Of a DNA stretch of 64,000 nt, positions 397-59,189 are shown piece after piece. The stretch comes from Panorpa germanica (Eukaryota; Arthropoda; Insecta; Mecoptera; Panorpidae), in NCBI GenBank assembly GCA_963678705.1, contig OY783213.1:16620451-16684450 (forward strand). The letters are read 5' to 3'. The notes under the pieces were generated by a model. The model did not search any database. It had not been told where the DNA came from and was given only the letters and a program-made list of their open reading frames with translations. The translations under genes were made by a program, and so were the position numbers. Every line of letters starts with the position of its first letter. Within the stretch, counting starts at the first letter, position 1.

Positions 397-487
397 TTAT
401 TAACCATGATTTATTTTGTTCCAGGTACGTTGGACATTTCGTTGACAATTTCCTTTCATGACTTACACGGCTTACACGTAATGACTG
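397..487 (+). other. Candidate recursive splice site and RS-exon 1
   Basis: A branch-site-like TATTAAC (398-404) and a T-rich tract lead to CCAG at 421-424, directly followed by GTACGT at 425. A second donor-like GTAAGA starts at 488, so a 63-nt segment (425-487) would be an exon. The segment is open in one frame only (third frame, about 20 codons). It could be a ratchet point, an ordinary small exon, or chance. The GTACGT donor is weaker than consensus. No host gene is visible. Confidence 0.3.
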
Positions 488-2273
488 GTAAGAAACACAT
501 TAACATTTTAATTATAAAATAGTGAATTTAAATAATTTCGAAACTAATTACTTTTGTCATATAGCAAAGTTGTTTTTCATCTGGCATATACTGGCCCCAC
601 TCTGTACAGCGTACTCCGAATTACCGTGACATATATTATTACAGCATTAATATTTCACGATGACATGCATTTTAGAGTTTTGTTATTACTACTAGCTATT
701 ACGTGAACCTGGATATAACCTAACCTAGCAACCTACTACGATTCATTATTTTAATATTTTAAATTTAACTCTCGTGTTTAGGAAATCTGTTATTATAGAA
801 AATTATACACAAAACTTTAGAACTTGGTTGATATTGATTCTAGTTTCTATTGTTATAATAGTAATTGACATTTTAAATTTAGAACTCTATTAACATTTCT
901 AGGAAGAGTATAATAATCTTTGCAGATACTAAAAATATATAAACACGAAGGAAATGAATAGGGTGAATATTTAAGGAAGGATAATATGTGTTTGTTAAAT
1001 TAAAATTGTGTTTTTATTGACATATAAAATGATATGTATTCTTGAAATTATGCGCATGAAAATATATTATGGTTTTTCTTATACAGTCGTATATTTTAGA
1101 AGTAGTATACTTTACAAAAAATGTAGAATGCCACCTCCAGATATTTTGTAGTGTATTTTTTTAATATCATTATTTTATGATGATTTCAACAACGCAAGAA
1201 CAAATGGCTATGGTTAAATGTTCTCATACATTGTGTACTATATTAATTTTCAAAACAGTTACACTAATTATTGAAAGCGTATCTAATTAAAGGGAGTTTT
1301 CCAATTAAGTTGTACGTAGAACTCATTACAGTATCGTTTTTGTTTAAACTTGTTCAATTCGATATTTTTTAAATTTCAAAACCAAAGCTGCACTGAAAGT
1401 AGAGTTAATTAAATCCAACCAAACATCATACGATAGTTTCATGCAAGACAAGATCCAATAACTCAAACCATCAGACCATTTCAAGCTAAGCGATTTTCTT
1501 TATCCTGCATTTACTTGCATCGTTCTACACATTTTCATATTTGATTAAAAACTTTAAGACAACTGATCCTTTTACTTCTTATTTTATCCACTTTCTTTGT
1601 TTTACATTAACGGGGAATATATTCCACATTATTTATAAATTAATATTTAACGGAGAGAATTATTTGCATACCATTAGCTAAATAATGTAAATTATTAATG
1701 CTATTTTCTATAAAATTTCAAGCATTTTCCTACCGCTCCCGCTGTCGCTAGTGCAATTTTCAATGCATATTACAAAATGAATGAAAAAACAAATAAAAGT
1801 GTTTTATTCGTTAAAACAGAATTTGCAATTGCTTTTATACCTTTTTGTTCAATATTGTATGGTTATAGTGATACTACTGTATCTATTACATTAAACGAGG
1901 GTTGGGTAAAAATAGAGTGTAAACATAATTCTATTAAGTACAAGAAATGTATATGAAAAGCAAGTTGAGCATAAGAAATTTTTGTTTATAAATAATATAT
2001 ATGTATAGGTAATTTGCAATATACTTTGTGATTCTTAGCTCCAAATGATAAACACTCTAGAACAATGGGTTTGTGAACCATGTATAACTTTCTTTAAAAC
2101 GGTTTTCTTTAAACCGTAAATGTCCAATTATTTTTTAATAAGTGGCAATGTTACACTCAAATAAATATTTAAAAAAAAGTTAATAAACAAATAGCCTATA
2201 TTTCAATAAAAACTAACAAATTCCGCGTTCAAGAATTGTCCTAAAAAAGGAAAAGCTTATTATAAATTAGCTT
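488..2273. other. A+T-rich stretch, nothing recognised
   Basis: No open frame of 60 codons or more on either strand, no repeat shared with the rest of the window that I can see, and no RNA gene. Confidence 0.6.
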
Positions 2274-2315
2274 AGTTATATATTATCTGCTTTTATCAGT
2301 TATATATTATCTGCT
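2274..2315. repeat. Two-copy short tandem repeat
   Basis: The 18-mer AGTTATATATTATCTGCT occurs at 2274-2291 and again at 2298-2315, a period of 24 bp. Confidence 0.85.
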
Positions 2316-2483
2316 GAACTGCTTTTTTGAAAACATCTGAGAAGTGTTTTAAGTTTTGAATCAATCTTTAATCAACCCTGAGAGATTCAAAGCTGCGAGT
2401 ATCATAGCAACATTACATAATTTTAATTTAATTCTATCTAATAAAATATATAATTAAATCTATAAGCAGGGGGGAGTGAGCGG

Positions 2484-2491
2484 TACTCGTA
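2484..2491 (-). repeat. TACGAGTA octamer, first of 19 copies
   Basis: The octamer TACGAGTA (or its complement TACTCGTA) recurs through the window. Plus-strand starts: 4015, 5147, 6288, 17421, 20733, 28382, 28388, 33079, 46193, 46834, 61708. Minus-strand starts: 2484, 3855, 7778, 10641, 15937, 34037, 36455, 57271. The flanks do not align with each other, so this is not a longer repeat family. The octamer is a near-palindrome, TAC-GA-GTA. Confidence 0.75.
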
Positions 2492-3074
2492 CTCAGTTTT
2501 TGCTGGAGCATACGTATTAATGAAATGAAAAAAAACACACAAAGCTTCCAATTTATTTTTGAAATTCCAAGGAAATGGCAGACACTTCAAGAGATACCGT
2601 ACGCGATACACTTTATATAAATGCTTTTATAGAGCATTAAAAAAATATATAAAAAAAAGATAAGAAAAATTATCAAACGCTTTTACAGCGATCTAGAAAA
2701 GAAACATCTATGAAAATGTAGTTTAACATAATATTCTAATTTAAATATAACATTTATATGTGAGGTACTAAGTGGTACAAAGTGATATATAACCTCGTTG
2801 GAAGGTGGGAGGGGGGCGAGGGTACGTTGTTTCTTTATGTAGACGTGTTCCGTACCATGAAGATATCGCTTATAAAGGAGCTACAAATAAAATATAATTA
2901 TCTACACGGGCTATGTACCATAAACGGTTGAGCGTGGTGGTCTGGTGCTGGTCACATTGAAAGAAATATGAGATACACCATGAAGCTGCCATGAGGGTGC
3001 CGCAGGAGCCCGCGGTGTCGTAATGATATAAAAAAATGCTAGGGTGAAAGGAAATGTGTGCGAGAGGAAAGAAC

Positions 3075-3085
3075 GGGGGGGGGGG
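3075..3085 (+). repeat. Poly-G run
   Basis: Eleven consecutive G residues in otherwise A+T-rich sequence. An open frame of 95 codons on the minus strand (2870-3157) crosses it and gives a run of prolines. It has no recognisable domain and I do not call it a gene. Confidence 0.9.
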
Positions 3086-10578: not shown

Positions 10579-11576
10579 TTCATATTTTAAATTGTATGAA
10601 TTATTTATCAGTATAAAAAATAAAACCAAACTTCTTCAAATACTCGTACAAGATTTTTGTTCTGTTTCTATCTAAGATGTATATTTACATATTATAGTCG
10701 TATTTATTATTCACATGCAGAAAAACAATCTCCCATGAAAATATTTATAATTGCATTATACATTTGAAGAGGGCATAAATTTATGTCATTTCATTTCAAA
10801 TATACAATTATCTGAACGTGTATAACAGCCCTACGGCAATGTAATCCCTTTTTTTATGGTGACATGGATTAAACTTGTGTACATATTTAATATCAAGGGT
10901 TGGGGAACATAAAATGCCAGCTCTTCGTGTATTTCAGCGTTAAATGCTATTACCCTGTTTTGATTTAGTGTTTTTGTATTTATTTTTTTCTCTTAAGTGT
11001 TTTGAGAAGTACAATATTTTACTTTCCGTGAGGTTTTGAATGAGAATATAATTATTTAGAATATTTATAATAAAAATAAATCTTTTTAGTTCAAGTACTT
11101 CTATTTAGCCTGTTTTATTTTATAATGCAACCTTTTATACACCAGTTGAAAAGTAATAGCTAATAATGAATGAAAATAATAGCGTAAATAATATTAATTT
11201 TTAATTCCATACCTGCATTTATAATGTCGAACGGTTTTTTAACATTTTCAAACATTTATTAGGGTGCAATATTATACGCAGATGCCTGCATTAAGTGGGA
11301 AGACAACAAAGTATATTTTCATATCGCTGAAAAATTAGCTATATTAAAAATGTTAGATGCTCAGATATGAATAATAGCGTTTAAAAAAAATTAAATTCCA
11401 GTATAAATAAAAAAATGAATTTTTAACATGCAAATTAAGGTGCTTATTCTTACTTAATTATTAAAAACAATAAGATAAAATTCATGTGGATCTCTGGGCA
11501 TTGTGAATTAATAGAGACGAATTGCAAACAATTCCGCTAAAGAATTTATAAATTTGGAAACTGAGATGTTTATATA

Positions 11577-11842
11577 TCCCAGTAAACAATTTGGTGAAGT
11601 GTTCTATTTTGTGACGTTTCTATCACTATTTCACTTCAATTATAGTTCGCATCAACTTTATCTTCATTTGTATTCCGACAGGTGGAGTGGTTCCGTCATC
11701 TGTAGCCGATAAAGTAGACATTTTATAAATGAATTTTATGAAAAAATGTGAGAAACTGAACTATAAATGAACTCTTTTATGACAAAAAATCATGACGCAT
11801 CTTCAATATGATGTCAAAGTGACTCCAAAATGTTTACTAGGA
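11577..11842 (+). mobile_element. Full-length R1 TIR element (TA-target MITE)
   Basis: The left end TCCCAGTAAACAATTTGG (11577) and the reverse complement of the right end, TCCTAGTAAACATTTTGG (to 11842), match at 16 of 18 positions, so these are terminal inverted repeats. Both flanks read TATATA, which fits a TA target duplication as made by Tc1/mariner-type transposases. The 266-bp body has no transposase. Three further copies lie in the window: 1-49 (right end), 23840-24015 (left part, reversed) and 31834-31965 (right part, reversed). The copy at 23840-24015 is over 90% identical across the first ~45 bp. I assign the superfamily from the TA flank only. Confidence 0.75.
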
Positions 11843-12599
11843 TATATATATATGTTATATATGTATATACATCGATACCTCTCTATATCTATTAATCTAG
11901 TTACAGTATCCAATAAATCAGTCGGTCAGTTTGATGCTCGACTAAGCATTCGACAAACAACCAACCAAATTCATCTCATATTTTTAAAATAAGATTATGC
12001 AACAACGCCGTTATATAAATAGCATTAGGTATGTACCATTACACAAGCATATTTCTATAGAATGTCATTAATCATTTAAGGGTGACACTATCATACCCTC
12101 TAAATTAAATATGAAAATCACCCTATTTAATTTAGTTTCATTTCATGTACACAAAACCCTAAGCGACAATACAGCTAATGTATCTTAAATCCATTGTACG
12201 TACGCGGTGGCGATTAGGCTTCCAAATTATTTACAAAATAACATTTTGCACTCAATGTCCCACTGTTTTTGTGTGTGTCCCCACTTCCCATATCTTCTTG
12301 TCCCAGAATCCCGATGTCCCGGTGTGAAAACACGCGCCACAAATTCAATTGTCCAATAATGTGGACTGTATGTGTATGCATTCCTTTCTGTTTTATTTAT
12401 TTCTCATATATTTGTTCTCTTTTATATAATCTTTCTGGGTAAGTATTGTTTGTGCGTCCCATGCTCCCGGACCCCTTATTTTCACATTTTTATAACGGTG
12501 GCAAATAAATAAGGATACACATACAACCCTCAGGTTCGTTGATGTCAGTAGCGTACATCTTTTATTTTGCAGAAGGTTGTGCAATACTTAGTTACAAAT

Positions 12600-16320: not shown

Positions 16321-16453
16321 GACCAGCAAATCTCATATTGTACTAGCTAAAAATTATCCAACCTTTGGAATGTAAATAAAATAGGTTGCAACACGAATTT
16401 AAGGTAGTACTGTCGGTCAGAGGTCAATGACCGGTAAGTCATATCAACTTCTA

Positions 16454-16798
16454 TTAATTCTTTTGCAATGTTTATTTTTAGAGAAAAATTATTGTAATGT
16501 GTTAAAGCAGTGCTTAGTTTCATTTAAGTTTTTTATATGTAAAAGAAAGAGACAGCAATATTATTTCAAAAATATTTATAAAGTAAATAATTTATGTAAC
16601 TATGGCAACGCATCAGTGTTTTGTTTATAGTTAAACACGTGCGAACAAGTTATTAATTATTTTGCCATGTTTCATTTTAAAGAAATATTTTTATAATGTG
16701 TTAGAGCAGTGCATAGTTTTATATAATATTTTTATATGTAAAAAAAGAGACAGCAATATTATTTTAAAAATATTTATAAAGTAAACAATTGTATTTAA
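16454..16798 (+). repeat. 198-bp tandem duplication (second copy partial)
   Basis: A segment beginning TTAATTCTTTTGCAATG at 16454 recurs at 16652 as TTAATTATTTTGCCATG. The copies stay aligned through AGAGACAGCAATATTATTT and TATTTATAAAGTAAA. The period is 198 bp and the second copy is cut off near 16798. Divergence by substitutions and small indels shows the duplication is not recent. Confidence 0.8.
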
Positions 16799-23839: not shown

Positions 23840-24015
23840 AACACTTTTAGGACAGTTCAGTTTCACACAGTCGTTCATATGAAATGTCTATTTTATACGC
23901 TACAAATGGCGAAACCACTCCATCTGTCGGAATATAAAAGTTAATGTTTTAATTGAAGTGCAATAGTGATAGAAACGTTACAAAATAGGACACTTCACCA
24001 AATTGTTCACTGAGC
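23840..24015 (-). mobile_element. R1 element, partial copy, reversed
   Basis: The reverse complement from 24015 follows the 11577 copy from its left terminal repeat (CAGTGAACAATTTGG) through ACGTTTCTATCACTATT, CCGACAGATGGAGTGG and AAACTGAACTG, then loses similarity near 23840. The right terminal repeat is missing. Confidence 0.75.
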
Positions 24016-26741: not shown

Positions 26742-26804
26742 CTAATAATGTGTATTTCTCTTTTCCAGGTAAACATCTTCGGTTCTCTCACTTCGGCGTG
26801 TCGG
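26742..26804 (+). other. Candidate recursive splice site and 36-nt RS-exon or microexon
   Basis: CTAAT at 26742-26746 is a consensus branch site with its adenosine 23 nt before the acceptor. The tract TTTCTCTTTTCCAG ends at 26768 and is followed at once by GTAAAC. A second donor-like GTAATG begins at 26805. The enclosed 36 nt (26769-26804) are about half G+C, a multiple of three, and free of stops in two frames; the first frame reads VNIFGSLTSACR. It may be a real microexon or an RS-exon of a ratchet point. It resembles no protein I know, and the GTAATG donor is only moderate. Confidence 0.4.
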
Positions 26805-27116
26805 GTAATGTGTCTACATTATTTCATATTTCTATTGTCTAATATATTCCATGTATATTGAAGCATAAATCAATATTTTATAATCCGTTAACATAAAGTA
26901 TCTACAACGTTAATCTTACCTTTATGTTATGGTGTAAAACATATTTTAACGGCACGGAAATAAATATATGAAGTTCTCAGCCATAAGCGCACGTCGTCAT
27001 AGAGACATGAAGTGCAATATAGTGGTTGCATAAAACACTAGGGCACTAAAACGATTCGCAATCGACTCTCCACATGACGAAGTATGAAGACACCGTGGTT
27101 GTGTTTATAAAGTATA

Positions 27117-41841: not shown

Positions 41842-43909
41842 AGGGAAAATAAAAGCGAATTCCAATCATGTAATAAGTCTTAAGAAAGAGTTAATCGTCG
41901 CAGTAAGTTCCCACACGGAACAATGTACCGCTGCCTCTATGTTCTTGTGAAATAGAATGAACTAAAATCTAAAAAATCTGAAACATTAAAATAATTTATC
42001 CTTTAAAAACTATATGATAAACATAAGGTTATCTGGTATGTGTTGATAAAACAGTTTCCCAACAATAAAATAAATAAATAAATAAATTTGACAATACTTA
42101 ATAACGCCACTGTGAATTCTTCATATTTCGGGAAATATAAGAAAACTTTTTTTTATTAAAGAAAACAAATAATTAATTTTGTTTTAAATAAAAGAAAAGA
42201 ATCTATTTCGTTTGTAATCTAATTTAAGAACGAGAATACATTTATTTAAAAACTAAAATAAAAACAGCACAAATTAAAAATAATACAATTCTAAAAGCGT
42301 TTCCAAAAAAAAAGTTTTTAATTGAGGAAGATTTTTTTATATTTAGTTAATATTGTTAAAATACTTTCATTACACAACAAGCAGATGGAGTTGGAAATCG
42401 AATTACGAAAAGTTTTAGACAACTGGATAAAGTTGAAAAGAATATTATTTTAAAGTATTTTTAATATCTAAGACATTCTTTAAAATTAATCCGATTTATA
42501 AATCAATTTTTCAACATTATTAGATGAAAAAGATTTTTTGATTACTTGTGAGATCATCAATATATCTCTTAAGAACGAGTAGTTATCCCGAATAAATAGA
42601 AAACCAGATAAAACAGTTATATATATTCAAGGTTTATTTAACATAAAAAAGTTTACCATTTTTAGGTATGTACAATGTTTAGGTATATAAAAATATATCT
42701 TTAGTTATGAAATTGTCTTTTTTGACGTAATTTAATTTTTTTCAAGATTTTTATTAAAGATTTCAAGAATATGCGCATTAATGTTAGTAAATTATGTTAA
42801 GTTCAGGTAAATAATAAAACGCAATGTTAGGTAAGAAGAAAATTACAGTAAGCAATACATGAAATATATAATATATGTTATCTAATCACATAAAAGTGCA
42901 GGTATCTAAACTAACTTCTTACATTAAACACTCCTTCGCCATATCTTAAACAATTCATATTCCTATGTACTTTGTCTTTGCATTATTCATTTTTCCTTTG
43001 AGGCTATCACTTCTTTCAAATATTCAAATATCTTTGGTAGTATTCACAGATACCAATTGTAAATTGTAATGCACTTATTTTTGCTTAACTCGTTAGGTAG
43101 CTACTAATTTGATGTTGTGAATAAAGCTAATTATTAAGCTTTACAATAGCAATAGAACATTCGCGAGAGTTAAACTAAATTAGTGTATTTTCCACATGAT
43201 GTAATTGTTTAATTGATTCAGAAGTTTGTTAAATATTTGTGTCGTTTTAGAACTAAATTAAACATTTGCTTTAACACACCAGTTTAGTTTACATTCATCA
43301 TCGTTTGAAGTTCATATGTTATTTGAAATTAACCCTAATTGATATATATTCTTGTGATGTTTGTTAACTTCATTACTGGCTTATTAATAGGGTGTAGAAT
43401 ACACTGCTAGCATTACTCAATATTCACCAAATAGAGTTAAATCAAACACGGGATGGTGATACATCAATCGAATATATCAGATTGAGATTGGAATTATTCG
43501 AATCTCTAGTTATTGTGTACATAGGTATTGTATACACACACTAATGAAGCATATACCAATTACACTGGTATGGGTGGGTATAAGTACATTCACCCGTTAC
43601 ATTTATAATGATGTTTTATTATATATCCCCGTTTTATCACCCCGAAAATTTATATTTAAATCCAGATTTACCCAATACGCACGGTACGCTACCTTTTAAC
43701 GACAGATTTCCAAGACAAAATTCTACCACATAAAGAAATCAGATTTTACATTCCTCTAATGTTATTAATTTCAAAATCACATTAATAATTCTCTAACTCA
43801 ACAAGTCTTATTTTCCTATAAATTAATTTTCACAGCTTTATCATTATTTCCCAGCGAGTGTCGATTCATTGTGTGGCTGACACTGAGTTTTACCTTATAT
43901 TTGAATAAT
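41842..43909. other. A+T-rich stretch, nothing recognised
   Basis: No open frame of 60 codons or more. An AAAT microsatellite lies at 42064-42088. Confidence 0.6.
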
Positions 43910-45237
43910 CTATTGTTTGCGTAGCACTTTAACTTTTGTCTTTTTGATATTAACGTCTAATCCTCCATGTTTTAAATCTGATTGACAGACATTCACGTCT
44001 GAGCTGGTAACATTGAACACCCTCACACCCTGAATGAGATGATGATTATGAAAAGCCATGAAATTGGATTTAATGGACAGAGACAGATTGAATATATTCG
44101 GAATAAACATAAATCATTGCCTCGTCTAATTCTCGTGCAACTGCTAAGTGAGTTGTATTGACAGAAACTTTGTAGAGATAATGGAATAGAGGCTGCACTC
44201 TGATGTCATTATTGCTTTAGGAGGGCTCGGTTGTTGTCTCAAAACAAATGTAGTTACTTCATTACTATCTTCAATGCGTTTCTTTAACAATTATTCTAAT
44301 CGTGTTACAGCTAGTTCGTTTTTTTTGAATTTGTGTAAACGGCTTATTGTAATCTATACGCATGTAAGATTCATATTTAGTAAGGTCCATCTCACACTAC
44401 AATCGACTACTTTCTAAGTAAAATGTATTCCATATTTTTCATATGAACACATCTAGCGTAATGTTTATTTTTATCATTGTATACATCTGTATTGTACTGT
44501 CAGCATTGTATATCTGTATCATTTTCCTGTTTCACCGTGTCAGCTTTCGTACTGCTCACGTTATATCCAGATATGCATGCATATTACAAAACTTTGATGT
44601 CTACACTCTCATGATAAAGTGACCTAATGAGACAACACCCTACTGAAAAGGAGTGCGAGAGCCTCTAAGGAATTTTATGCGAAGAAAGAAACAAAGAAGG
44701 TACAACTTGTTTGCTTTTGAGATTCGAATCCTTTGCCATGTGTAATTACAAAAATTTTAATGCCAACAACTGTCAGTTTAATTTTAAAATATTTAACACA
44801 AAACACAGTAGTAACTTTCAATAGGATCTTAACGCTGATGCACTCCGAAATTTGTAAACAGATCACCATCTGAAAAGTGGTTTACCCAACTACGTTCATT
44901 GGGGAGAGTTGGGAAAAGGAGTAATTTTTGCTTTGTGTTTCACACAGTGTAATAACAAAAGAGTCAATTTATAAGTTGATATAAAAATATTTTTAGTAAC
45001 GATGCAGTAAATTAAATTGTGATGTATTAAACCACAAATAGTAATGATGAACATTAAAATAAATAATTTTATGCTCCATGTTGCTATCAAAAAACAATTT
45101 TACCAAATTTATTGTATCAAATAATATCCTAAATATTTTTTCCATTAACTGCCGAACCAGATATTTTAATAAACACACAACGACAAAAGCTATGCCATCG
45201 CAATCATATTCATTGAATCGCGCCCGCATCAGTAGTA

Positions 45238-45258
45238 GGGTGGTGGGTGGTGGGTGGT
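45238..45258 (+). repeat. GGGTGGT minisatellite
   Basis: Three exact heptamers. The three GGG runs plus GG pairs could form a G-quadruplex-like structure, which the sequence alone does not prove. Confidence 0.9.
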
Positions 45259-46219
45259 ACATATAGAAACGTTATTACAATAAAATCAACCTTTATACAA
45301 TTTGTTTTTGTACGGCACACAGCAGTACAGCACGATACACGATACAGTGTCATCGCGGCATAGTCGTAGTTACCAATACTACATTTACAGATATTTTTGT
45401 AATTATATTCAGATTCTGTGTTATGATATTTGTATTGTAATTTGTAATTTATTTTGATTGTGTTTGCTACTCACAAATGTTTTGTGTTGAGTATCCTTCG
45501 CTTCCATATTGTTTATAGTAGACACGAACGCAGGGCTCGAAATTATGTTAGGTACATTTAAATAGCAAGAATTCATTAATTATTTCACATGAAAATAAAT
45601 ACGTTATTTCATAAATTGAGACTATAACTTAATATTTTCTCTATTTCATTGAATAAAATGTCATTAAAGTTAAGCTGTGTTTATAATTTATCTTTTATTT
45701 ATGGTATCATGCTAATTAAACACTACTTTAACAACTATTTCATATAAATACTAAGTTTCAGATATTAATAATAATGTCCCTGGTATCTATCTTTTACTAC
45801 AAGTGATTTAACTACAGATTTATAGAATCACATTTACTGTAGATGCAGCTCCTATTTTAAAACCATAATATTCTTATAATAATATATTTCGTTTTATTAC
45901 AATTCTAAATCCTAGAAAATGTCCATAACTCCAAGATCGATATAATAAATAAAATTATGAAAGCCATTCACAATAAATATTTTGTAGATAAAAATAAAAT
46001 ATCTAAAGTACTCATGTGAGTACGTACTCAAATGAGTACTCATTTGTACAAAATAAGTGTCGTAAATTCGAGCACTGCTTCAACTATAACATAATAGGTG
46101 TATTGCTGTTTAACGTAGTCTGTTTTTCGAGTGTTGACTCTTATTATTGTCTGGTGTCGCTGCACTTTATGAATAAATTTGTATTTTATACGTACGAGTA
46201 TATATATTATCACTACTTG

Positions 46220-46568
46220 CAGAGGCGGCCTTAGGGGGTGGCAAGCAGTGCAACCACACGGGGCCACGCACCCTCGCGCAACAACCCAAGTAGAAAAATT
46301 AATTACTATATATGTATTTCAATCACGCCCCTCGCGTTTTAAAAACCCATTAGAATCAGTCGTTTAAGACATTCATGTACCTTAGTTTATCATCATTAAT
46401 ATTTGTCGTCTTTGTGCTTGTTAACTTTTATAAATCTTCCAATATAACATTTTAAAACTCTACATTTATTTATTTATAACTTTTGCATTCATCATCCAAA
46501 ATACTTACTTTCAATTTACATAAATTACGCAAAAAACAGACGCCTCGCAATGGCTAATGCCGCCTCTG
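46220..46568. mobile_element. hAT MITE
   Basis: The left end CAGAGGCGGCCTTAG and the reverse complement of the right end, CAGAGGCGGCATTAG, match at 14 of 15 positions. The flanking octamers ACTACTTG (46212-46219) and TCTACTTG (46569-46576) match at 7 of 8, the 8-bp duplication typical of hAT insertion. The body is 349 bp without transposase; GC-rich ends enclose an A+T-rich middle. Short frames crossing it (46040-46367) are therefore not genes. Confidence 0.85.
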
Positions 46569-47409
46569 TCTACTTGTGTAGGTTTGTGTACATATAAATT
46601 ATAATCTTCTGGCTATCTATTGTTATTATTCAGTCCTGTATTATGCATGCAGGACTAGCAGGACGAACAGGATACTAGATGCCACCGACATCCGATAATT
46701 TTATTCTAGAAATATTCGAAGGAATAATACAGATACTTCAATATAAATTTAATACTGCTATAAAACGAAATCAACAGCAATCTCAATTTATAATATAATT
46801 TATATGGCATAGAAAATTATTTCAAGACACAAATACGAGTATAATCACATTTCTATTATTCAGCGGTGTATATGCCCCATTTGGGGTAATTTACACCAGC
46901 GATTTAGAGTCTCTTGTATAACAACAGTACTTTTTTAGAATAAATATATGAAAAAAGGATGCCGAAATGGCTATCATTTTGGTATGCTGGGTAGCATTTT
47001 ATGAATGAGGTACCTACTCCCTTTGATGGTTCATTGCATAGGTTCAATACGCAACCATCTATACGAGAATTGATTTTAAAGAAGAAGAATAGCAAAACAT
47101 ATGTGTACTGCAAGATATTAATATATATATTCATATAAGTTAGTTATATATTTATATATACAGAAAGGAAGTAATCAACTCTTGTGCAATGTTCCAGTCA
47201 ATAGCCATCTGGTGGGGGGTTAACGAAGTGAAAACCTCTCAAATTCCAGGATTACTGATAATCCATAACATTCCCGCACATTCTATGAAATCCAGATAAC
47301 AGAGAGCCGGTCAGTCCGCGAGAAATTCCGCTGGACGCTTACTCGATGCTCCCCTAAGCCTAAGAACACTATCTGCACCCTACATCGGCAATGAGATCAT
47401 GCTTTCACT

Positions 47410-47423
47410 GCGCCACCTTGTGG
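47410..47423 (-). promoter_or_regulatory. CTCF-like motif (strong core)
   Basis: The reverse complement, CCACAAGGTGGCGC, fits the CTCF core CCASYAGRKGGCR with one deviation at the fifth base. It lies in a locally GC-richer stretch (47200-47600). Occupancy is not shown. Confidence 0.4.
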
Positions 47424-48401
47424 AAATGTGTGTATAGAGCTATCGGAAATGATCTGAGAATGTGAGGGAGGAGGGGGTGTTGGGGTTAAGATATGACACC
47501 AATTGAAAGAAAATTATTGTTCCGGATCCTAAAGCCAATGGACGGGATTCGAGGGAAAGAAGCAACGGATTTACTGAAAGTTTGGAAATAATCGTTGCGC
47601 GTAAAGTCATGTGGCATGTTGGCATGTAGGAAATAATACATTTCTTATTTTATCATGTTTAGGTTACATAACTTTATACGTGCGTTACCAATACTTACAT
47701 ATGTTATTTAAGACTGCCAATCAAAAATGATACAAATGTTGAAAATTCATGTTTGTAAAACTTTCCATTATTTTTTATTTGAATTGAATTATTTGAATTT
47801 GATTGAATTTGAGTCGATTTCAACGACAAGGTCATATTCGCATGAAATTATTTTACTTTATTTAAATTTGGTTGGGAATTTTTATTTTTTGTTCTTTGTA
47901 GAAACTCTTGTATGTTAAATATGCTTAATTATTAATATCTCGCTATATAGTTGGTCAAAACATTTGAAATTTTGTAATTAGATTAAATACACTTATAATA
48001 ACATATTTTAAAGTGGTTTTACCTTAAATCAGTTTATGAATACACAGATTTATTTTATACTCTGCACTTAAATTAAGTACAAAGTTTCCGTAACATGCTA
48101 AAGTAAAAGTTAATGAATGAAAACAATTTTTTTTTTCATTCAACTATAACTTTTCGTGTTCACACAAATTTCTATCGTTTCTGTATTTTCTAAAACATCG
48201 TCATGTTAAGCCAACGTAATGGAATGGTACATGCACTCTCCACTGTATTTTCTGTATAAAATGAATAACATTGACTCAATTTGACGTTGTGTACAGTTTC
48301 CATATAAAGGACACAATGTACGAGTTATTCCATGGTGCAAACTATGAATATGGCCGCTAGAGTTTCTGACAACATGACATGCGGGAACAAAAACATAACG
48401 G

Positions 48402-48475
48402 CAGCAACAACAACAACATCAGCATCAACAACATCATCGACAATGACAATGACAATGGCAGAAACAACACGATGA
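48402..48475 (+). repeat. CAA/CAT/GACAAT low-complexity tract
   Basis: Imperfect trinucleotide repeats (CAACAACAACAACATCAGC, then GACAATGACAATGACAATGG). One frame reads as an asparagine- and aspartate-rich peptide of about 40 residues ending at a stop, which simple repeats produce by chance. Confidence 0.85.
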
Positions 48476-48651
48476 ACATGACGCGATACTCCGAATTATA
48501 AACTTTAGAGTAGAACAATCCCCACAGCCACCGCGAGCTTTATGCGACGAGCTACATTGCCATCAGCAACCGAGCAACAAAGATCTGTGGCGTATTAATT
48601 GTCTTAAGAGTAAGAATTACAAGTAATGTAAGGAATGTCTTATCTATGTCT

Positions 48652-48770
48652 TTCGAATTCGATCCCCGGATCAGGGTTATATTTTCTGAGTTTGGTTGTT
48701 ATCTAGATAAATTTATTATGCACAAAGATAATCATAAATTTATCAGCAGCGATGCAACCAACATATATGA
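48652..48770 (+). mobile_element. R2 SINE-like element, copy 1
   Basis: Starts at a B-box-like TTCGATCCCCGG and continues through TTTTCTGAGTTTGGTTGTTA, TTTATTATGCAC, ATAATCATAAATTTATCAGC and ACATATATGAG. The same order of blocks is seen at 54999-55115 and, from the middle on, at 61889-62031. The tRNA-type B box suggests a tRNA-derived SINE. No A box is evident in this copy. Confidence 0.6.
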
Positions 48771-49146
48771 GTGAAAAATATTACTTTAAAGAATACATGA
48801 TCAATTTAATGGCGTACTTCTACCATTGAATGTACTCAATTCAAAATATATATAACTAACGAGGTTGAAATCGTCAGATATATAAATTATTAATATATGT
48901 CATTTGATAGAGTGAGTAGAAAGAGAGAGAAATAAATATGATATTTATTGAGACAAAGAATATAACGAAGGTTGCAGAAAGATATAAAAATGAAATATTA
49001 TGAAAGTAAAACATACAGTATAAAAATATAATCAAATACAATAAAATGAACATAAATAATCGCTTAAGTATTAACGTCTTTAAAATATGCTGTTGTTCTC
49101 AAGAAATTTGTATAATAAGACCACAAATCAGAGTAATGCGCTTTCT

Positions 49147-49163
49147 GAGAGAGAGAGAGAGAG
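49147..49163 (+). repeat. GA microsatellite
   Basis: Eight GA dinucleotides. Confidence 0.9.
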
Positions 49164-49949
49164 TCAACTAGTGTAAGTGTGTAGCATTGTTCTACATAAT
49201 GAACTAAAACAGCTTCCTACGCCCTCCAGAAATATATGCGTATAGTAATTTTTATTTCCAACTCAAAACAACCCTTCCATAAATATAATTACGGTATATC
49301 TCACACCCCTATTAAATATAATTTCTTTCTGTTTAATATTCAGAGTTTCCTACAAAACTCTCATTTTACGGCTATGGTTAATGTCATAAATGTCATAAAA
49401 TATATTAGTACGAGATCATAATTCGAAGGGCAGGTCGTTTTACGGTGCCCCAAGTAACCCCGCTGTAACCCCTCGTCACCCTAATGACCTAATCGGACCC
49501 AACGTCGGAGTTTATTGACGAACACACCCCCAAATGGTTTATGTTCACATAAAAATCACCCCTTATGAAATTCTCACAATGTAAAAAATAGTGTTCAATC
49601 TATAAAGAAAAGTTTGTTGTCTAGAATTGAATGACGTCACGATTTTAACCGAATTTAACCGATGAAATACGATGGGTTCAACGATCAACTGACGCGACAG
49701 TACAAAAAATAATTGAATTGATTGATGGGAATGCGATTGTTAATGATTATGATTTTTGTTGGTTAATTAGAGCTGAGTTTAGTATTTACGATGTAATGTT
49801 CTCTGTCATTCACGAGAAATGTGAAATTGAGTGTATTTGTGTCATGTTTAATGTAAAATGGAAAGCAAACGAGAGTACAAGGGTACAACGAGCAACAAAA
49901 TGTGGGGAATGTTAAAATAAATGTTACAAATACCCAGCGGTACATTCAA

Positions 49950-52650
49950 AAGCAGAAAACAATCAAAAATTAAATGAATTTAAATAATTTTTCTCTCACC
50001 ACAGCATCAATTTGATAAGCGACAAGTTCGTATCGAACGAGGATGAGAAGGAAAAGTGGATCCTATAGGACAATGGGTGCGTTCTAGGACTCGACAGTTG
50101 TAAATTTATCTGGATAATTGGTTATTAAGATTATTTAACAAGATATTATTACATTTTGATTTACAAAGAGCGTACGTGATCAATTTGAATAGTTTGAAAA
50201 TCGATTGCAAAGTTTTGACCTTAGTGGCAAACAAAAACTATAAGTTTTGTTACGATTTCAGGCATTTATTTTTGCCAATTGTTATTATCTTCAGGTTTAA
50301 CATAATATTAGGAAGCGAATCCTTTTTTAGTCCTTTTTTATTACAAGACACAATTATGTAGCATTTACGTATAACTTACGTCTAAATATATCTGCGTAAT
50401 TATCATCTGAAGGGTTTCTTTTAAAAGGGTCTGCTTGTTTCTTAAAGTTTTCCTCAAAACTCCTTTATTTACTAAATGTTAAATAAATTTCACTTACAAA
50501 TTACAATGTTATTCCAAGATAAAGTAGATGAGATTAGATTTATTTCGCGGAGAATGAAACTTCCCATTAACAAAGCTAAGAGGGCAGGGCGTCTTCATTA
50601 TGTAACCAGCTTAAGCCAGATTTATTTTATAGATATCAACGACTTAGCGTTTAACTGCCAAACGGGAGTCTGGTATAAAGGAGTCTACTGTTACGATCCG
50701 GCGGGTTTTGTACAATTATCAATTGTTATGTCAGCCTTATATTGTAAAAACAACTCCCCTATCCCTCTAAAACACTCTCCCTCTCTCTAAATCCCTCTAC
50801 ATGAAATAGTGCTTGTTATTTATTAGGCTTCGGTCATGATTCCGTCCAATATTTCTATCCGTGGCTGTAGACCCTTTTTTCCAATTCCTCTAGAGCCGTG
50901 TCATACATTTCAAGTAACTAGGAGGATGGATACAAGAGCACAAACCATTTTAGACAAATCTCCGCGAGTTATTTGATAAATCTTTGTTTTTGATGGTTGT
51001 AAGCAGTGAAACATGGGCGTCCGCTAGGAAAGGGAACAAATCGACCTTAATATAGACATTTAATAACAAGTCCTATCATTTTTCAACAACAGGAGTTATT
51101 TTATATCAATAACGTAAAAACGGAAAACGCAATATTTTCGTTAAAAGTGGTGATTGTTTTATTTTAATCCAAAGTACGAGAGTAGTTTTATAATTCAATG
51201 ACTGTCAAACTGAATGATACTCAGCTTGCTTAAAATTTAACAGTAGTCTATTAATTAGATGGCAGTTGACGAAAGCAGTGTTGCATTTAAAGTTACTGCG
51301 CGGGAAATTCAAAAAGTCATCGACATCAAACTGTTCTCGTACTTTGAATTAAAATAAAACGTTGAAGTAATAATGTTGTGCGTACGCCCATGCTTTACAG
51401 TATCATAAATAATATGACAGCCCACAAAAACTATAGAAATTTATACGTTTCATGAACTTTAAACTCTGTCCCATGACGTATAAAAATAATTTAATTATAA
51501 AACAAAAGAATACTTTTTCATAAAATAAACTTTATGTTTTGATAGTTGTCAAAGTTTTAAAACTTGTTTTGGTACTTCACATTGTATCCGTTAGCTCGTT
51601 AATCAATTTCATTTATTTCTGTTATTATCAATATGAGCACATCTGTAGTTTTCTACGAATTTCATTGTATTTGAAATATGTCTTAGATATTATTCAATTA
51701 ATTGCTCAAGTGGTTTTGTTTATAATTTGTTTTTATTCTGTTGTACAAAAGTAAAAAAAACAACACTTTACAATAATAGCATGTTATTAAATATAAAATA
51801 AATTGCTGGAGTTTCGCGATGCTACAGTATACCACTACAACAATCATTACAAGACGTTGGATGCATTTTAAAGTAAAACTAAAGCTGGATAAGATTCCAC
51901 TATAAAAATACAAATTCCTTAAGACAGGGTGTTAAATGTTAATTTCTTGGATATTGTAAAGAACTTTTCTTTGAAACTTATATATTTTCTTTATTTTATT
52001 TTTATATCATAAAATAAAATTGAAGTAAAGTACGCCAAGATGATAAAAAAAATTAAGAAAAAGGTGTAGCTTTTCTATTTTTCTGTATAAAATAATTTAG
52101 TAATTGTTGTATACTCATATATAATGTTATGAAGAATAAAAGTCAATTGTGTTAATTTCAAACAATTAATGGTAATGAGTAATATCTTTTAAAAGCTATT
52201 TTTGTGTTTCCATATTTTTGTTGCAAAACGTAGAAATTAACAAGATGTTTGATTTGTGATCGAAGGATTATTTATGGAGGAATACTACTCTTTTAAAAGT
52301 GATTTGTAAAATGTTTCACTCATATAAATCAGATCTGTTCGATCACGATCATTGTTCGCAAGACTCATAATAGGGCCCCTGATGCGAGCCGTGCAGATCT
52401 ATAGATGTTTACCTTACCTTTCATGTAGATATTATTTTTATTAATACCTAATCAACAACATTATATTTAATTATTATTCTATTATTTGTTTCAATATCTG
52501 AAGACGACGAAACTAAGCAGGGAAAGCTTACAAATAGTTATAAGAACGTAATCCGCACTGAACGTGATGATCATACGAAGATCCGACTTAGTTTATATCG
52601 TTCATACCTTATGTTGTACACAACACCCAACTTGCCGTAATACTAAGCCT
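49950..52650. other. A+T-rich stretch with short unassigned frames
   Basis: The plus-strand frame 50476-50790 (104 codons) has a mixed composition but no motif I can name. T-rich tracts ending in CAG near 50259 and 50296 resemble 3' splice sites, but no donor follows them. Confidence 0.45.
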
Positions 52651-52656
52651 ATTACC

Positions 52657-52680
52657 GTCCATTGTCCATTGTCCATTGTC
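52657..52680 (+). repeat. TCCATTG minisatellite
   Basis: Three exact copies of TCCATTG plus a partial fourth. Confidence 0.9.
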
Positions 52681-53471
52681 TGGCCTGTTTTAAGGTTTTA
52701 ACCCTTCGGGATACCTATCCTATCGATCAGTCTTGAAAACACCTAACGTCCATAAAACGAAACCACCAACACGAATAAACCTGAAGCAAGTTATACCAAA
52801 GCAATAAACATTCAACACTTTATAATCGTATTAATTTATTTTAAGTAGGTAATCAATTTTATTAACACCCTATACCTTTTTTATTATGTACTTGTCTGAA
52901 ACAGGTAAGGAAGTGCAAACTGCATTATGTGGAAAAACTAGAATGGAATACTTATACGTTGTTAACTTTTTATAACATGGACAAGGCAAAGCAAGGCAAG
53001 GCGTTAAAGAAAAAGAAGATCATTTTTTATACACTGTAGGTGGTAGATACGACTATCGCTATGAGTAGAAACATCTTAACGTATAAAATCCAATTTTAAG
53101 ATATTTTTATTCTACCCCATATGCAGTATACTCTTGTTAGTCTGTTACGTTTTGGGATATTCTACTTTGCAGATGGTTTGGATATCGTTCGTTATAAAGA
53201 AAAAGAAGAATTGTGAGGATCGCACACATAATACATGCTATGAATAATTATGTATCATCTGTGTTATATGTACATATATCTGTGTATGTATAAACTCAAT
53301 ATAGTACCCATACTATAGCATATATCTTATATTTATAGAAATAAGTGGAAGTTTCTTTATACAAACGTCCACAGGTCCACATGGTTCGCATTTAAATGCA
53401 TCGGATTTATCTTCTGAAACGTGGAAATAGAGTGAAAAGGGAGGGATCTCTTTGGTTGGTCGTATAAATAT

Positions 53472-53971
53472 TGTTACGAATGTGCGGGTGAAAAATATAG
53501 TTGTGAAACATTAACTGTTATTATTAGAAATGATTACTTAGACTGTACACCTTAAGCATGTACCTCTGCGACATAAACAAAGTTGTTTATTTAAAACGTA
53601 ATAACTTATTGCACTGATTCCTTGGTAATGAGAGATAAACAGCTTGAAAATAGAACGCATTAAGGAGCATATGCGAGATTCAAGCCGTCGATTTCTGGAA
53701 ATATACTACGAACTAATAAGGGCCACGTCTTAGAATCCTTCTGAAAAGCCTACGACACCGGACAGTATATAAGGAACCGGAGCACCGAGTTGCAGTTGGT
53801 CCGCGACAATACAAACAGCAGTTGTAAAATAATTGTAAATTGTTGTGTGTGATATTAAATAAAGTCTGTAAAAAGTGTAAATCATTGTTCACATTTTAAT
53901 TGTGGCTATTCTTAATTATTAAGGTAATTAAAGGAACCTAAAGTCGCGTGCGTGTATTACGGCATATCACA
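53472..53971 (+). mobile_element. Solo-LTR-like block of a Gypsy-type retrotransposon
   Basis: The left edge TGTTACGAATGTGCGGG is a typical start of insect Gypsy-type LTRs. About 290 bp in comes a promoter-like TATATAAG (53766-53773) followed by GAGTTGCAGTTGG, then a poly(A) signal AATAAA (53858-53863) with a G/T-rich downstream stretch. This is U3-R-U5 order. The right edge is uncertain: several CA ends occur between 53964 and 53974, and no flank matches the left one (AATAT). No second LTR, gag or pol is present nearby. The block abuts a fragment of family R2 at 53997, so it may have inserted into an R2 copy. Confidence 0.55.
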
Positions 53972-53996
53972 ACAGTCAATACAATACGAGGTCAAC

Positions 53997-54039
53997 GGTG
54001 ATAGGGCTCAGCACCCGAAGTAGGCCGACGCTAAATAAA
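53997..54039 (+). mobile_element. R2 SINE-like element, tail fragment
   Basis: GGTGATAGGGCTCAGCACCC and the next ~22 bp, to CTAAATAA, align with 61990-62031 at about 31 of 42 positions. Most differences are C/T or G/A, as expected from decay of methylated or deaminated copies. Confidence 0.55.
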
Positions 54040-54957
54040 TTAAGAACTCGAAATGCAATTAGATATCTTTTCTTCTCTATAATTCTCCAAATGTCAGTTA
54101 CGACAGTTTATCTCTCAATTACAGCAGTATTAGGAAGTATGCGCTTTAGAACAGTAACCAATCATTTTTCTCCTAGATTGATATATTTTTTTCCCAAATA
54201 ATTTTCACCAGATATCACATGACACAGGGCTGCCCTCGAGCAACTTGTTTTCTGTATTTCATGCCACAGAAACTTTCGTTGCTAAAATAACCTTTCTGCG
54301 TCAGCTTTAACTAAGCATGCTTGCTTGTGCTTGTGAACATAAAGGTTGGTTAAGTACAGGGTTACCTCGCTACTCCACCAGAATATAAAGATCATTACAT
54401 ATGTATATTTCTCCACTACATATCTTTCCAATTCAAAAACTTGCGTTTCTGTTTTTTCTGATTTTTTCTTTTTTTTCCACTCAACATTCCTCTTTCGTTT
54501 ACCTTTCACTAGCTTGTTATAATGTTGATTCTCTTTCTCATTCCCTCTTCAGAATTCCTGCATCTTATTATCCTTGTCTAACGTATTGCGATCTTTGTGA
54601 TGACGACGACTTGACGACGTTTCACATATCTTTAAGGAATTGCGGTGATTTTTTCTGTCACACGTGGTTTTTTTATATTATTTGATAACTGTGGTGGTAC
54701 CGACGTCTCCGACGTCTTTTTAGCATTTGTATTGTGCGTAAAGGTGGAATATGAAGCCACTTTAACAGCAGAAAAGGGTGTCAGCGATTTCAAGGGTCGC
54801 TTATATTCGTATCTACCACGTAAAGGGAACTATGCTTTATATGAAAAAATTGTTTTTGATTTTTTCTGTATGGTGATTTTGTTCACATTCTCTTTTTAAT
54901 TGGATTTGAAGGGTTAGTTTTATTTTCAAGCTGAATTCAAGACAAAGTAAACCATGT

Positions 54958-55115
54958 CTGGACAACACAGTGGGCGTAAAGATTGATATTTGACTTCGGG
55001 TTCGATCCACCGATCATAGTTATAATTTCTGAGTTTGGTTGTTATCAAATTAAATTGATTATGTTCATACATAATCTTAAACTTATTAGGCAGTGGTGTA
55101 TTTTACAGATATTAG
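54958..55115 (+). mobile_element. R2 SINE-like element, copy 2 (left part of a split copy)
   Basis: An A-box-like ACAACACAGTGGG (54962-54974) precedes a B box GGTTCGATCC (54999-55008) at normal tRNA promoter spacing. This is followed by TTTCTGAGTTTGGTTGTTAT and GGCAGTGGTGTATTTTACAG. The copy is interrupted at 55115 by a hAT MITE and resumes at 55519 with GATATGAGGC. Without the hAT, the joined order matches GTGTAGTTCACATATATGAC at 61948. Transcription by RNA polymerase III is known for such promoters; activity here is not shown. Confidence 0.6.
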
Positions 55116-55518
55116 CAGTGTTACCAACCCTACTGTTTTAACAGTAGATTTGCTGTTTTCACATTGATGTCCCTGTTTTCTGTTTCATTCCTAATTTTTA
55201 CTGTTTTTCGATTAGCGTTCAGCGCCACCTATTACACTATGCAAATATTTTTTAAAAAGAAAAATGAGTGTGAAAATATTGAAGATGAGGCAATTGAGAA
55301 TGAAAGTGGAAAATAATTCTACTTTGATTTTTATTTTTTTGTTGTTGTGATTATTAATATAACAATGTATGTGAGTTCTGGTAACTAAGAAAATTGTTCA
55401 TTGTTTTAATTATATGAGCAAAAGTATGAAATCTGCCTTTTTTTTCTTTACCTACTGTTTTCTCCTGTTTTTTTTTTGCGAGCTGCTGTTTTTTAGTTTT
55501 TTGGGGTTGGCAACACTG
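55116..55518. mobile_element. hAT MITE nested in R2
   Basis: The left end CAGTGTTACCAACCCT and the reverse complement of the right end, CAGTGTTGCCAACCCC, match at 14 of 16 positions. The flanks GATATTAG (55108-55115) and GATATGAG (55519-55526) match at 7 of 8, a hAT-type duplication. The 403-bp body contains repeated CTGTTTT motifs and A/T runs but no transposase. It splits an R2 copy, so it is younger than that copy. Confidence 0.85.
55221..55235 (-). promoter_or_regulatory. CTCF-like motif inside the hAT MITE
   Basis: The reverse complement GTAATAGGTGGCGCT has the AGGTGGCGC core and fits 12 of 15 consensus positions. Because it lies inside a mobile element it could have been carried there. 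Confidence 0.25.
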
Positions 55519-55550
55519 GATATGAGGCCGTGATACCATAAATAACAAAC
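55519..55550 (+). mobile_element. R2 copy 2, right part after hAT insertion
   Basis: GATATGAGGC and the following A+T-rich bases continue the R2 copy broken at 55115, by comparison with 61950-61980. Confidence 0.45.
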
Positions 55551-55559
55551 ATTTTAGTT

Positions 55560-56925
55560 TTTGCAGTAAGAATTTTTCCAGTAGCTCGAGTTACCTATTC
55601 AGAAAGCATTTCTTAAATATATTATTCTTATGATGGTAAGTCAATAAAACTAGAAATATCGTTCAATTTACCTCCCTTCGCTGCACAGCACATGTACATG
55701 GACGTATGTACAACATTTCTAAGAGATTAGTTTCTTTAGTGCCTCTTAAGAGACCTCTCACAGTAAAGAAGTTGCATGAGAAGAACGCTTTTAACGACTA
55801 ACTGGAAAGCAACTCTGATCGATCTATAGCGTAATAAATATTTGTATAGAAATAGAAATTCGCTTACATGTATTAGTTTATATATGTATACGATAGTAAG
55901 TAGAGTGTACTCGAGCTTGTGCGAGTATTGTGCAGTGTACAGATAAATTAGTTTCTTAATAAATTGAAACTAGCTTGACTCGTTTCCTTGTTCTACAATA
56001 ATAACCGGGAACGATAAATCAATATCTAGGCCAGCGGCTGCCAATTCGCTCACATTAATATTTCACTTTTAGCAAATTGTAATAACTAATTATCTTCCAT
56101 GAATAAATAATTAAACGTACATGCTCGAAAATTTGTTCAAGAATTATCTAAGGTTCATTTATCCCCCAATTACATATTAATCAATAGTTTCAATAGACTA
56201 AAGATCAATTAAACCATGTAGTTCTAATTCATTTTAATTATATTGGCTTCCTAGTTCCTCAGAATTTTTTTCACATTTAATTTATTCAATTCTGCCTCTT
56301 TTATACCTCTGAGAGTGTCACATGGACTAAGGTGCATTATAGATTCATAACTTTGCATGTTTAAATTGAAATAGATCATGTCTAACTTCAATATTTTAAC
56401 TGCAGTTATCTGTTTATAAATATTTGGTTTTTGACCCTTGGTTTGATCCTTGGAGTGACGTTTTCGCCGCGATCACAACGACCCTGGTCACCTTGTGGAA
56501 CGGCTGAAATAATATTTTGGACATTGTGAACGCTTAGTGGAACGCATCCAGGGTAACACTGCACTGTGCAGTGATACAATTCAAAACCCGTTTATTAGTT
56601 CTCCACTCATTATGCTCTTTTTTACATCGACGAGATTAGAATAACATCAGTGCATTATTCTCCCACGGTTTGCAACTACCAAGGTGTAACAAAACACAAA
56701 CTTTTCACGAATATTTGAACAATGACATGACAAAAACATATTTCAGAACTGGTCTATTTTCATTGAACACAATGCAAATAGAAATATTTTTATGCTAATT
56801 AAAGAAAATCATGCTAAATATGAAATGCTTGTATGCGACCTCCGACATACACATATTTTTTGTACAAATATATCTAGTATGTATATTATCAATGTGATAG
56901 TAAAATAAGCATTTGGTAGATTCGT
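55560..56925. other. A+T-rich stretch, nothing recognised
   Basis: No open frame of 60 codons or more and no repeat assignable to the families above. Confidence 0.6.
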
Positions 56926-56987
56926 TTGATAAACATTTGTACAATGAAATCAAAAACACACATTAAAAAGACATTTAGCTGTGCAAG

Positions 56988-57013
56988 CATTCCAAGCCCT
57001 CATTCCAAGCCCT
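56988..57013 (+). repeat. Two-copy 13-bp tandem repeat
   Basis: CATTCCAAGCCCT occurs twice head to tail. Confidence 0.85.
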
Positions 57014-57126
57014 CATTCAATGCTTCATGCTTCAATATTGGAACAGACAGCTATCAAAATAGAGATGTCCAAAACAGACAACGTTTCTGGTCGACGTTAC
57101 TATGGTTTGTAAAAGTTGAATGACAT

Positions 57127-57199
57127 CGATGTTTCGATATTTTTAATATTATAGTTTTTTTCGATGAAGGTATTTCGATGAATAATATCGATGGTCGAT
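57127..57199. promoter_or_regulatory. Cluster of CGAT motifs (BEAF-32/DREF-like)
   Basis: Six CGAT cores occur within 73 bp (57127, 57135, 57162, 57176, 57189, 57196), including CATCGATG, TTCGATAT, TATCGATGG and TCGATATT. BEAF-32 in Drosophila binds clustered CGATA, and DREF binds TATCGATA. No exact TATCGATA is present, and whether these factors exist in this organism is unknown. Confidence 0.3.
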
Positions 57200-58272
57200 A
57201 TTGGTTATTAAGATCGAGAGCTATTTTCAACACAGCAAGTACCAACTGTAATGTCTGAACACTCCGACTATACTCGTACATTCCATTGTCATGCTACTAG
57301 CTTCCCCTTCGCTAGTTTTTGCGTCTATTTGTCAAGCAAACGTAGACTCGAGAACTGAGAGCTAAGAATGTGTTTGTATATATATTTTTTTAAAGATCTC
57401 TAATAAATTTCCTTTACATTTTTCAAGCGTTATTTTTGTGACAATTTGAATGTGACACGTATATTTCCAGTCCTAAAGATTTCAAATGTTGTAAACGATT
57501 CCCTCGTGCCATCTTCACTCAACCCACAGACATTTACACCCCGTTCTCCCTTCTTATTTTAAGGGTGTGAGACATTTCTCTGACAGGTGGCGAACGTCAC
57601 ACGTCCCTTCTCAAAAGAATACGAAAATATTTTGCGTATGTCAATTTGTGTCACAAGTCTCGGATACGGGTGACTGTTGACTTTTGTGATATTTTATGCT
57701 AAATAGTGTGTTATTTTATCACAGAGCGGCGCTGCTAAATAATGTAAAGAGAAGGAATGACAGAAATGCGGAGGTTTTTTTCATATAACTTTTTTATTTT
57801 CATACATTTAAATTTTTTATTTTATCTTAAAGGTGTTCAAATATTGGTTTTATGCCGGGTTTTATACAGGATTCGCAAAAATATTCATAACACTTTTAAG
57901 AGATTTTTTTATCAGTGCTTTGCAAATTCTAGATGTATACCACATGTGATTTAATGGGCTCTCAACACCTGAACTTGGGGAGGAGCAGAAAATAAACTGT
58001 TAAGTGTTGTTACGTGTAATAATGCTATCCATAATATTATTGATCATGTTATTTTATTTTCAAGTGTATACAAATTAATTTAGTTTTAATTTCACTAACA
58101 ACAATTACTGGAGGAACTGCTTAAATACATGAAGCCAATAATTGGCTCTTATTGATTTTGAGATACAATTGTTCGTTACACTAAAGTTATGTAACATGTT
58201 ATAATAATGTACAAATTCTATCATTTAATTTAACAGTGTATCTTTGAATATATTTTCACTATCCCTGCCTAA

Positions 58273-58380
58273 ATATTAACATGTTCTTTTTCTTTTTTTT
58301 CAGGTATGTGCTACTGTAACTTTTATTTGAAGCTGTTCTAGTGTTTTCTAACACCTTGCATAATTGACTAACTAGATTTG
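58273..58380 (+). other. Best candidate recursive splice site with 77-nt RS-exon
   Basis: TATTAAC (58273-58279) is a strong branch-site match about 24 nt before the acceptor. An almost unbroken pyrimidine tract (58284-58300) leads to CAG at 58301-58303, directly followed by GTATGT. A second donor, GTAAGT, begins at 58381 after TTTG. The enclosed 77 nt have stops in all three frames, so this is a non-coding exon or an RS-exon and not a coding exon. The sequence matches the ratchet-point consensus known from long Drosophila introns. An ordinary exon of a non-coding RNA is the main alternative. Confidence 0.5.
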
Positions 58381-59189
58381 GTAAGTTTTTGTCTTTAATA
58401 TTCATTCATGATGTAAACATATCACGGTCATTACACAGGGTACAAACACAAACTTTTAAATTAACATATTTTATAAAAATGTATATAACATTACCTCTAG
58501 TATAATATTTTATTTATATTTAAATAAGTTAAAAGTTAAAAAAAGTTCAAATAATCAAAAAACGCCTTCGTACATATAAAACCAGACCAGAAGGCATTTG
58601 CGTTGCTCGTTCCTTGCTCGTTTATTTGCGTACCATTCAAATATCCGGGGTTAAATTTAATTTAAATCTTGCTTTGGAGCAAAAGCAAGGTATGCGTATG
58701 GTTACGCGTTGCCATTGGCACAGTACACGTAGAGCAAGCGAAAAGAAACACGAACAATGTTAACACAAGCCCAGGGTGGCTGACAAGTCGTTGGCTTCTA
58801 GAGAATATAACCTTTCAACATAAGTGAACGCCTGTCGCAAACCTTAAAATGTGTGACTTTGACTTTGATTTTAAGTCCACTCTGTATTTATTTTATTTTT
58901 TTTTCTTGGGGAATATTAAATCAAGATGTAAATACAAACATCTTGAATTTATGCTCGCTATTGTTAGACAAGCTAACTTCGTGCGACAGATACTAAGTTT
59001 CTTTCTAAAGTTTCTAACTTTTATGTATTTTTTTGAGTATTCTGTACTTGTCTATTTGTTAAAGTAAGATTTTTTTTATTTAATATGATAACAAACTTTA
59101 AATAAAGAATATTTTAATAGTTGTCTGATATTATTTTCCAATAATTAATTTAATAGATCTTTTTTTGACGATAACAATTACCTGTACCG

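Follow-up and report, generated by a model that had tools for sequence, protein, structure and literature searches.

Candidate ratchet points with putative recursive-splicing exons on the plus strand of a gene-poor 64 kb window

The stretch of DNA considered here, 64,000 nucleotides of contig OY783213.1 (positions 16,620,451 to 16,684,450 of the forward strand; "the window" below, numbered from its first letter), carries three plus-strand junctions that resemble the ratchet points, or recursive splice sites, of long introns. A preliminary description placed them at 424/425, 26768/26769 and 58303/58304, all on the plus strand, and these coordinates are exact. At each of the three, as that description had it, a branch-like motif and a pyrimidine tract precede a CAG that abuts a GT, with a second GTAA donor at 488, 26805 and 58381, at distances of 63, 36 and 77 nt. 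The distances between junctions, given earlier as about 26 and 32 kb, measure 26,344 and 31,535 nt. The segment between each junction and its second donor is treated as a putative recursive-splicing exon (RS-exon). The parts are as follows, with scores on a percentage scale described below.

400..404, plus strand: branch-site-like TTAAC of site 1, branch A at 403, 21 nt before the end of the AG
422..430, plus strand: candidate ratchet point 1, CAG|GTACGT, junction 424/425, matrix score 81%
425..487, plus strand: putative RS-exon 1, 63 nt, a multiple of 3, one of three frames open, guanine-plus-cytosine (GC) fraction 0.41
488..493, plus strand: donor of RS-exon 1, GTAAGA, 79.1 on the percentage scale
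26742..26746, plus strand: branch-site-like CTAAT of site 2, branch A at 26745, 23 nt before the end of the AG
26766..26774, plus strand: candidate ratchet point 2, CAG|GTAAAC, junction 26768/26769, acceptor strong and donor weak, matrix score 77%
26769..26804, plus strand: putative RS-exon 2, 36 nt, a multiple of 3, two of three frames open, GC 0.53
26805..26810, plus strand: donor of RS-exon 2, GTAATG, weak at 59.8%
58276..58280, plus strand: branch-site-like TTAAC of site 3, branch A at 58279, 24 nt before the end of the AG
58301..58309, plus strand: candidate ratchet point 3, CAG|GTATGT, junction 58303/58304, matrix score 89%
58304..58380, plus strand: putative cryptic RS-exon 3 of 77 nt; stops interrupt every frame, and the length is not divisible by 3
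58381..58386, plus strand: donor of RS-exon 3, GTAAGT, 80.7 on the percentage scale

The surrounding DNA is AT-rich, with 31% GC overall and 26-35% GC per 2 kb, and its CpG observed/expected ratio of 0.97 across the window differs from that of methylated vertebrate DNA. Such values may point to an invertebrate, perhaps an insect, though as no more than a guess. Six-frame translations were scanned in tiles with stops written as X. No protein family above its cut-off was found in the 28 of 30 tile-frames compared with Pfam, a scan run without a positive control in which short or divergent exons may be missed, and the remaining two, compared with PDB sequences only, gave no match. Two Pfam matches, to Churchill (E 0.077, 13.7 bits against a curated cut-off of 25) and RFC_C (E 0.05, 14.7 bits against 27), fall far below their thresholds and were rejected. 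A tRNA search of the window found nothing, and an Rfam search found no family at its cut-off; the lone Rfam match at E of 1 or less, a plant-virus element with 26.6 bits against a cut-off of 100, was discarded. The stretch had been called gene-free, which agrees with these scans to the extent that they reveal no recognisable protein family, tRNA or Rfam family above cut-off. A gene-poor window of this kind fits an intron, and fits intergenic DNA as well. We prefer the intron because the excess of recursive-type sites is specific to one strand.

The three sites share one anatomy, and it occurs on the plus strand in excess of chance. All 288 AG|GT sites of the window (157 plus, 131 minus, the outermost 30 bases omitted) were scored with a joined acceptor-donor matrix on a Shapiro-Senapathy-type percentage scale, covering positions -15 to +6, with approximate weights and not those of a published table. 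Sites 58304 (89%), 425 (81%) and 26769 (77%) take ranks 1 to 3 across both strands, and the best minus-strand site reaches 70%. At a threshold of at least 80% there are two sites on the plus strand and none on the minus; at least 75% gives three and none (small numbers); at least 70% gives four and none, with two in the reversed sequence and one in the complemented sequence. Scoring both strands against shuffled sequence was the check proposed in the preliminary description; with simulated sequence in that role, the plus-strand excess persists at 80%, where the simulations have a mean of 0.04-0.06 such sites and 0 of 300 runs reach two at each of Markov orders 1, 3 and 5. Permuting the real acceptor contexts among all plus-strand AG gives p = 0.023 at 70%, 0.0024 at 75% and 0.0012 at 80%. 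Like the simulation figures, these values are optimistic: the feature came to light by reading, in what is presumably one window among many, and the census criteria were drawn up once the sites were in view. A figure of 80% is also the threshold of published surveys for ratchet-point sites (PMC2773006); 58304 and 425 score above it and 26769 just below it on our matrix, which is not the published one. Site 58304 is the top site of the window on all three matrices applied. The named sites again rank 1 to 3 on a fly-like matrix, likewise approximate, and a score of at least 0.85 is reached by four plus-strand sites (the fourth being 22385) and by none on the minus strand.

The percentage matrix spans only -15 to +6, so that the second donor, the branch motif and the position of the previous AG can be tested as further features. 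All three sites are followed within 20-100 nt by a second donor scoring 2.75 bits or more, a cut-off set by the weakest of them (the best donors for 425, 26769 and 58304 score 5.5, 2.8 and 4.7 bits), against 9% of positions and 16% of plus-strand AG|GT sites. A branch motif (YTAAY) lies 18-30 nt upstream of all three, against 10% of AG and 12% of AG|GT on the plus strand. The previous AG begins 59-67 nt upstream at 3/3 sites, a distance of at least 59 nt being found at 6% of sites, and such an AG-free stretch is correlated with the pyrimidine tract. When the full layout is required, with at least 11 pyrimidines in 15, the plus strand holds the three named sites alone, and the minus strand and the reversed sequence hold none; simulated sequence holds a mean of 0.05-0.06, and 0 of 600 runs reach three at each of three Markov orders. 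Requiring a second donor of at least 65% retains 425 and 58304 and drops 26769. Two modules with such a donor compare with a mean of 0.02 and a maximum of 1 in 500 runs of order-3 simulation.

Other candidates were set aside on the same features. The plus-strand runner-up, 28285, lacks both a good second donor and a branch motif at 18-30 nt; 22385 (plus) has a fair second donor (67.9%) without a branch motif; and 42666 (plus) has a branch motif with a poor second donor (53.8%). The last of these (AG|GTATGT) has a weak acceptor and its branch-like TTAAC 24 nt upstream, and stands right after a repeat copy (D3) at 42614-42655. An earlier reading had found nothing comparable on the opposite strand. 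No full layout occurs there, and to that extent the reading stands; it slightly overstated the case, as the minus-strand sites 32565 and 57968 have 12/15 and 11/15 pyrimidines. Both lack a GTAA donor at 20-100 nt, and their adjoining donors are poor.

Taken together, these sequence data speak for genuine recursive-type sites and RS-exons on the plus strand, a credible but ordinary candidate of a known mechanism, and lend partial support to the preliminary inference of a giant intron removed in steps. We think it probable that the window lies inside one very long plus-strand intron of an invertebrate-type gene, with the three sites acting as ratchet points; what points to a single giant intron is sequence statistics. 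The transcription and use of the sites, their order and the fate of the RS-exons we infer by analogy with the systems described below. The splicing machinery would define a short exon of 36-77 nt between a strong acceptor and the downstream donor, and would join the upstream exon to the GT at 425, recreating a 5' splice site at the junction. The recreated donor would then outcompete the donor of the RS-exon itself, so that the RS-exon would be removed along with the next segment of the intron, and the same step would be repeated at 26769 and then at 58304. On the percentage scale the ratchet donor is the stronger at 3/3 sites if the upstream exon is assumed to end in AAG or CAG; with AAG the values are 81.8 against 79.1 (425), 70.7 against 59.8 (26769) and 82.1 against 80.7 (58304). 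The RS-exons are best read as short and mostly cryptic. If the transcript is coding there, RS-exon 3 would have to be discarded, because stops interrupt every frame and its 77 nt are not divisible by 3. RS-exons 1 and 2, with open frames and lengths divisible by 3, could be included in some transcripts, retained in the manner of Ubx m1 and m2.

The proposal follows what is known from flies and mammals, where an RS-exon is first defined between its acceptor and a downstream donor and spliced to the exon before it; in most cases it is afterwards lost, as the regenerated junction donor outcompetes its own donor (PMC8605326, PMC6224609, PMC6110457). In flies, most of these sites are followed within less than 100 nt by a further 5' splice site (PMC6224609), and each of the three sites here has a GTAA donor sequence within that distance. 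The Drosophila ratchet points of Ubx, kuz, Bx, osp and others resemble the candidate sites of the window in their core of pyrimidine tract and CAG|GT, in lying serially on one strand, and in their long gene-poor surroundings; they differ in that one regenerated donor is weak here. Drosophila RS-exons measure about 50 nt (PMC8605326), similar to the 36-77 nt to the downstream donors of the window. For example, the Ubx microexons m1 and m2, which are expressed, are 51 nt long (PMC8605326); the RS-exons of the window are likewise short, and RS-exons 1 and 2 resemble m1 and m2 in that their lengths divide by 3 and leave a frame open, unlike RS-exon 3, which cannot be coding. Vertebrate RS-exons (CADM2 and others) also undergo exon definition by a downstream donor followed by donor competition (PMC6224609), as proposed here. 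Large vertebrate introns, unlike the window, show little or no enrichment over the complementary strand, with a ratio of 0.9-1.5 (PMC2773006). The reported number of such sites per 100 kb of introns longer than 50 kb is 2.2 for fruit fly, 1.0 for mosquito, 0.8 for beetle and 0.5 for bee, against 0-0.12 on the complementary strands (PMC2773006). The two sites of at least 80% in 64 kb correspond to 3.1 per 100 kb, on a matrix that differs from the one of PMC2773006, so that the rates are only roughly comparable.

Several observations weigh against this reading, and some of them bear on a competing explanation, namely that a motivated reader has selected chance matches in DNA that is AT-rich and rich in pyrimidine tracts, and that the window is perhaps intergenic. 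The matrices have approximate weights, and it was reading that singled out the feature; the P values carry no correction for other windows. With loose cut-offs (at least 9 or at least 10 pyrimidines, a looser branch motif, any GTAA and no donor test) the count is not above chance: at each order, a fraction 0.10-0.25 of the 150 simulations does equally well. One full layout occurs by chance in the complemented sequence, and two when nine pyrimidines suffice, at which threshold there are four on the plus strand, none on the minus and none in the reversed sequence; the reversed sequence, as given above, holds two sites of at least 70%. Site 26769 is weak in both donors, its regenerated GTAAAC scoring 53% alone and its GTAATG falling under the 65% cut-off. 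A log-odds matrix is less flattering, ranking 58304 first, 26769 fourth and 425 fifth of 288, with 28285 (plus) second and 37074 (minus) third by a tiny margin. At 26 and 31.5 kb, the gaps are longer than a typical Drosophila segment of 9-15 kb (PMC6110457). Chance does not readily explain, however, why the percentage matrix returns the same three sites as ranks 1 to 3, all on one strand, or why the second donor, the branch motif and the AG-free stretch, which lie outside the matrix score, are present at 3/3 sites, and we hold it to be somewhat unlikely.

The segments might instead be ordinary short exons of a plus-strand gene (coding microexons, 5' untranslated region or long non-coding RNA) that start with GT by chance and are simply included. 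Lengths of 63 and 36 nt, both multiples of 3 with an open frame, would suit such exons, as would GC fractions of 0.41 and 0.53 above those of the flanks (0.26-0.27 in 100 nt, 0.31-0.32 in 300 nt); the GC of RS-exon 2 is matched by 4.3% of 36-nt stretches, and those of the others by 16% of 63-nt and 45% of 77-nt stretches. They would not suit 58304-58380, with its stops in every frame, and the 20-residue reading of 427-486 has no meaningful PDB relative (best E 0.76). Sites 425 and 26769 moreover fail the cut-offs for a plain acceptor-donor pair, and it is the regenerated GT donor that sets them apart. We regard inclusion as ordinary exons as quite unlikely. That transposable elements carried in decoy splice sites is very improbable: the window does contain several repeats, and the AG|GT site 11682 lies inside one, but the three sites and their RS-exons overlap 0 of 7 repeat pairs from a self-comparison at E 1e-6.

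The repeats themselves are of several kinds. One of about 274 nt has four full or partial copies (11573-11846, 23852-24012, 31834-31966 and 2-51), two per strand and 74-94% identical in pairs; its ends, TATATCCCAGTAAACA and TGTTTACTAGGATATA, are inverted repeats with one mismatch, and it looks like a DNA transposon of the miniature inverted-repeat type (MITE). Copies of 95 nt at 48652-48746 and 54995-55089, 81% identical, start with a sequence like the B box of tRNA genes (GGTTCGATCC in the second copy) and probably represent a tRNA-derived short interspersed element (SINE). One tRNA-like repeat is perhaps reminiscent of Lepidoptera. Exact scans for two of the window's repeats gave no hit in viral contigs; in genome contigs one repeat again gave none, and the other gave five hits in bacterial metagenome-assembled genomes (MAGs) whose titles suggest no relation, about as many as expected by chance. 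A megablast search of 45000-64000 against plasmids was likewise empty. A local direct duplication of about 148 nt occupies 16452-16599 and 16651-16798 (87% identical, spaced 199 nt). Exon-like acceptor-donor pairs that pass the cut-offs number 12 on the plus strand and 6 on the minus, with an open frame in 2 and 0. A stretch of 132 nt at 12307-12438 (plus) resembles an exon, with one open frame between a good acceptor and a GTAAGT donor, and may be a pair formed by chance.

The mechanism of recursive splicing is already established, and a 2009 study (PMC2773006) reported computational enrichment of such sites for mosquito, bee, beetle and sea urchin. Among the matches listed from the open-licence literature, titles and abstract openings mention no experiments on recursive splicing in a named non-fly insect, which is weak evidence of absence. 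Returning to the reading of the window as part of a long plus-strand intron, its most specific form would place here, in an organism that is neither fly nor vertebrate, a giant intron of at least about 58 kb, removed via at least three ratchet points 26-32 kb apart (about 2-3 times the fly segment), in which RS-exons 1 and 2 (63 and 36 nt, in frame) could be kept as alternative microexons as in fly Ubx and the third would always be discarded. Stated in full, this is rather unlikely. If the sites are used, they would add a case of stepwise intron removal, probably from a non-model invertebrate and with steps longer than in flies, in which segment length and donor competition could be compared against intron size. 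In a 64 kb stretch that is otherwise blank, they would further mark a giant gene and show its orientation.

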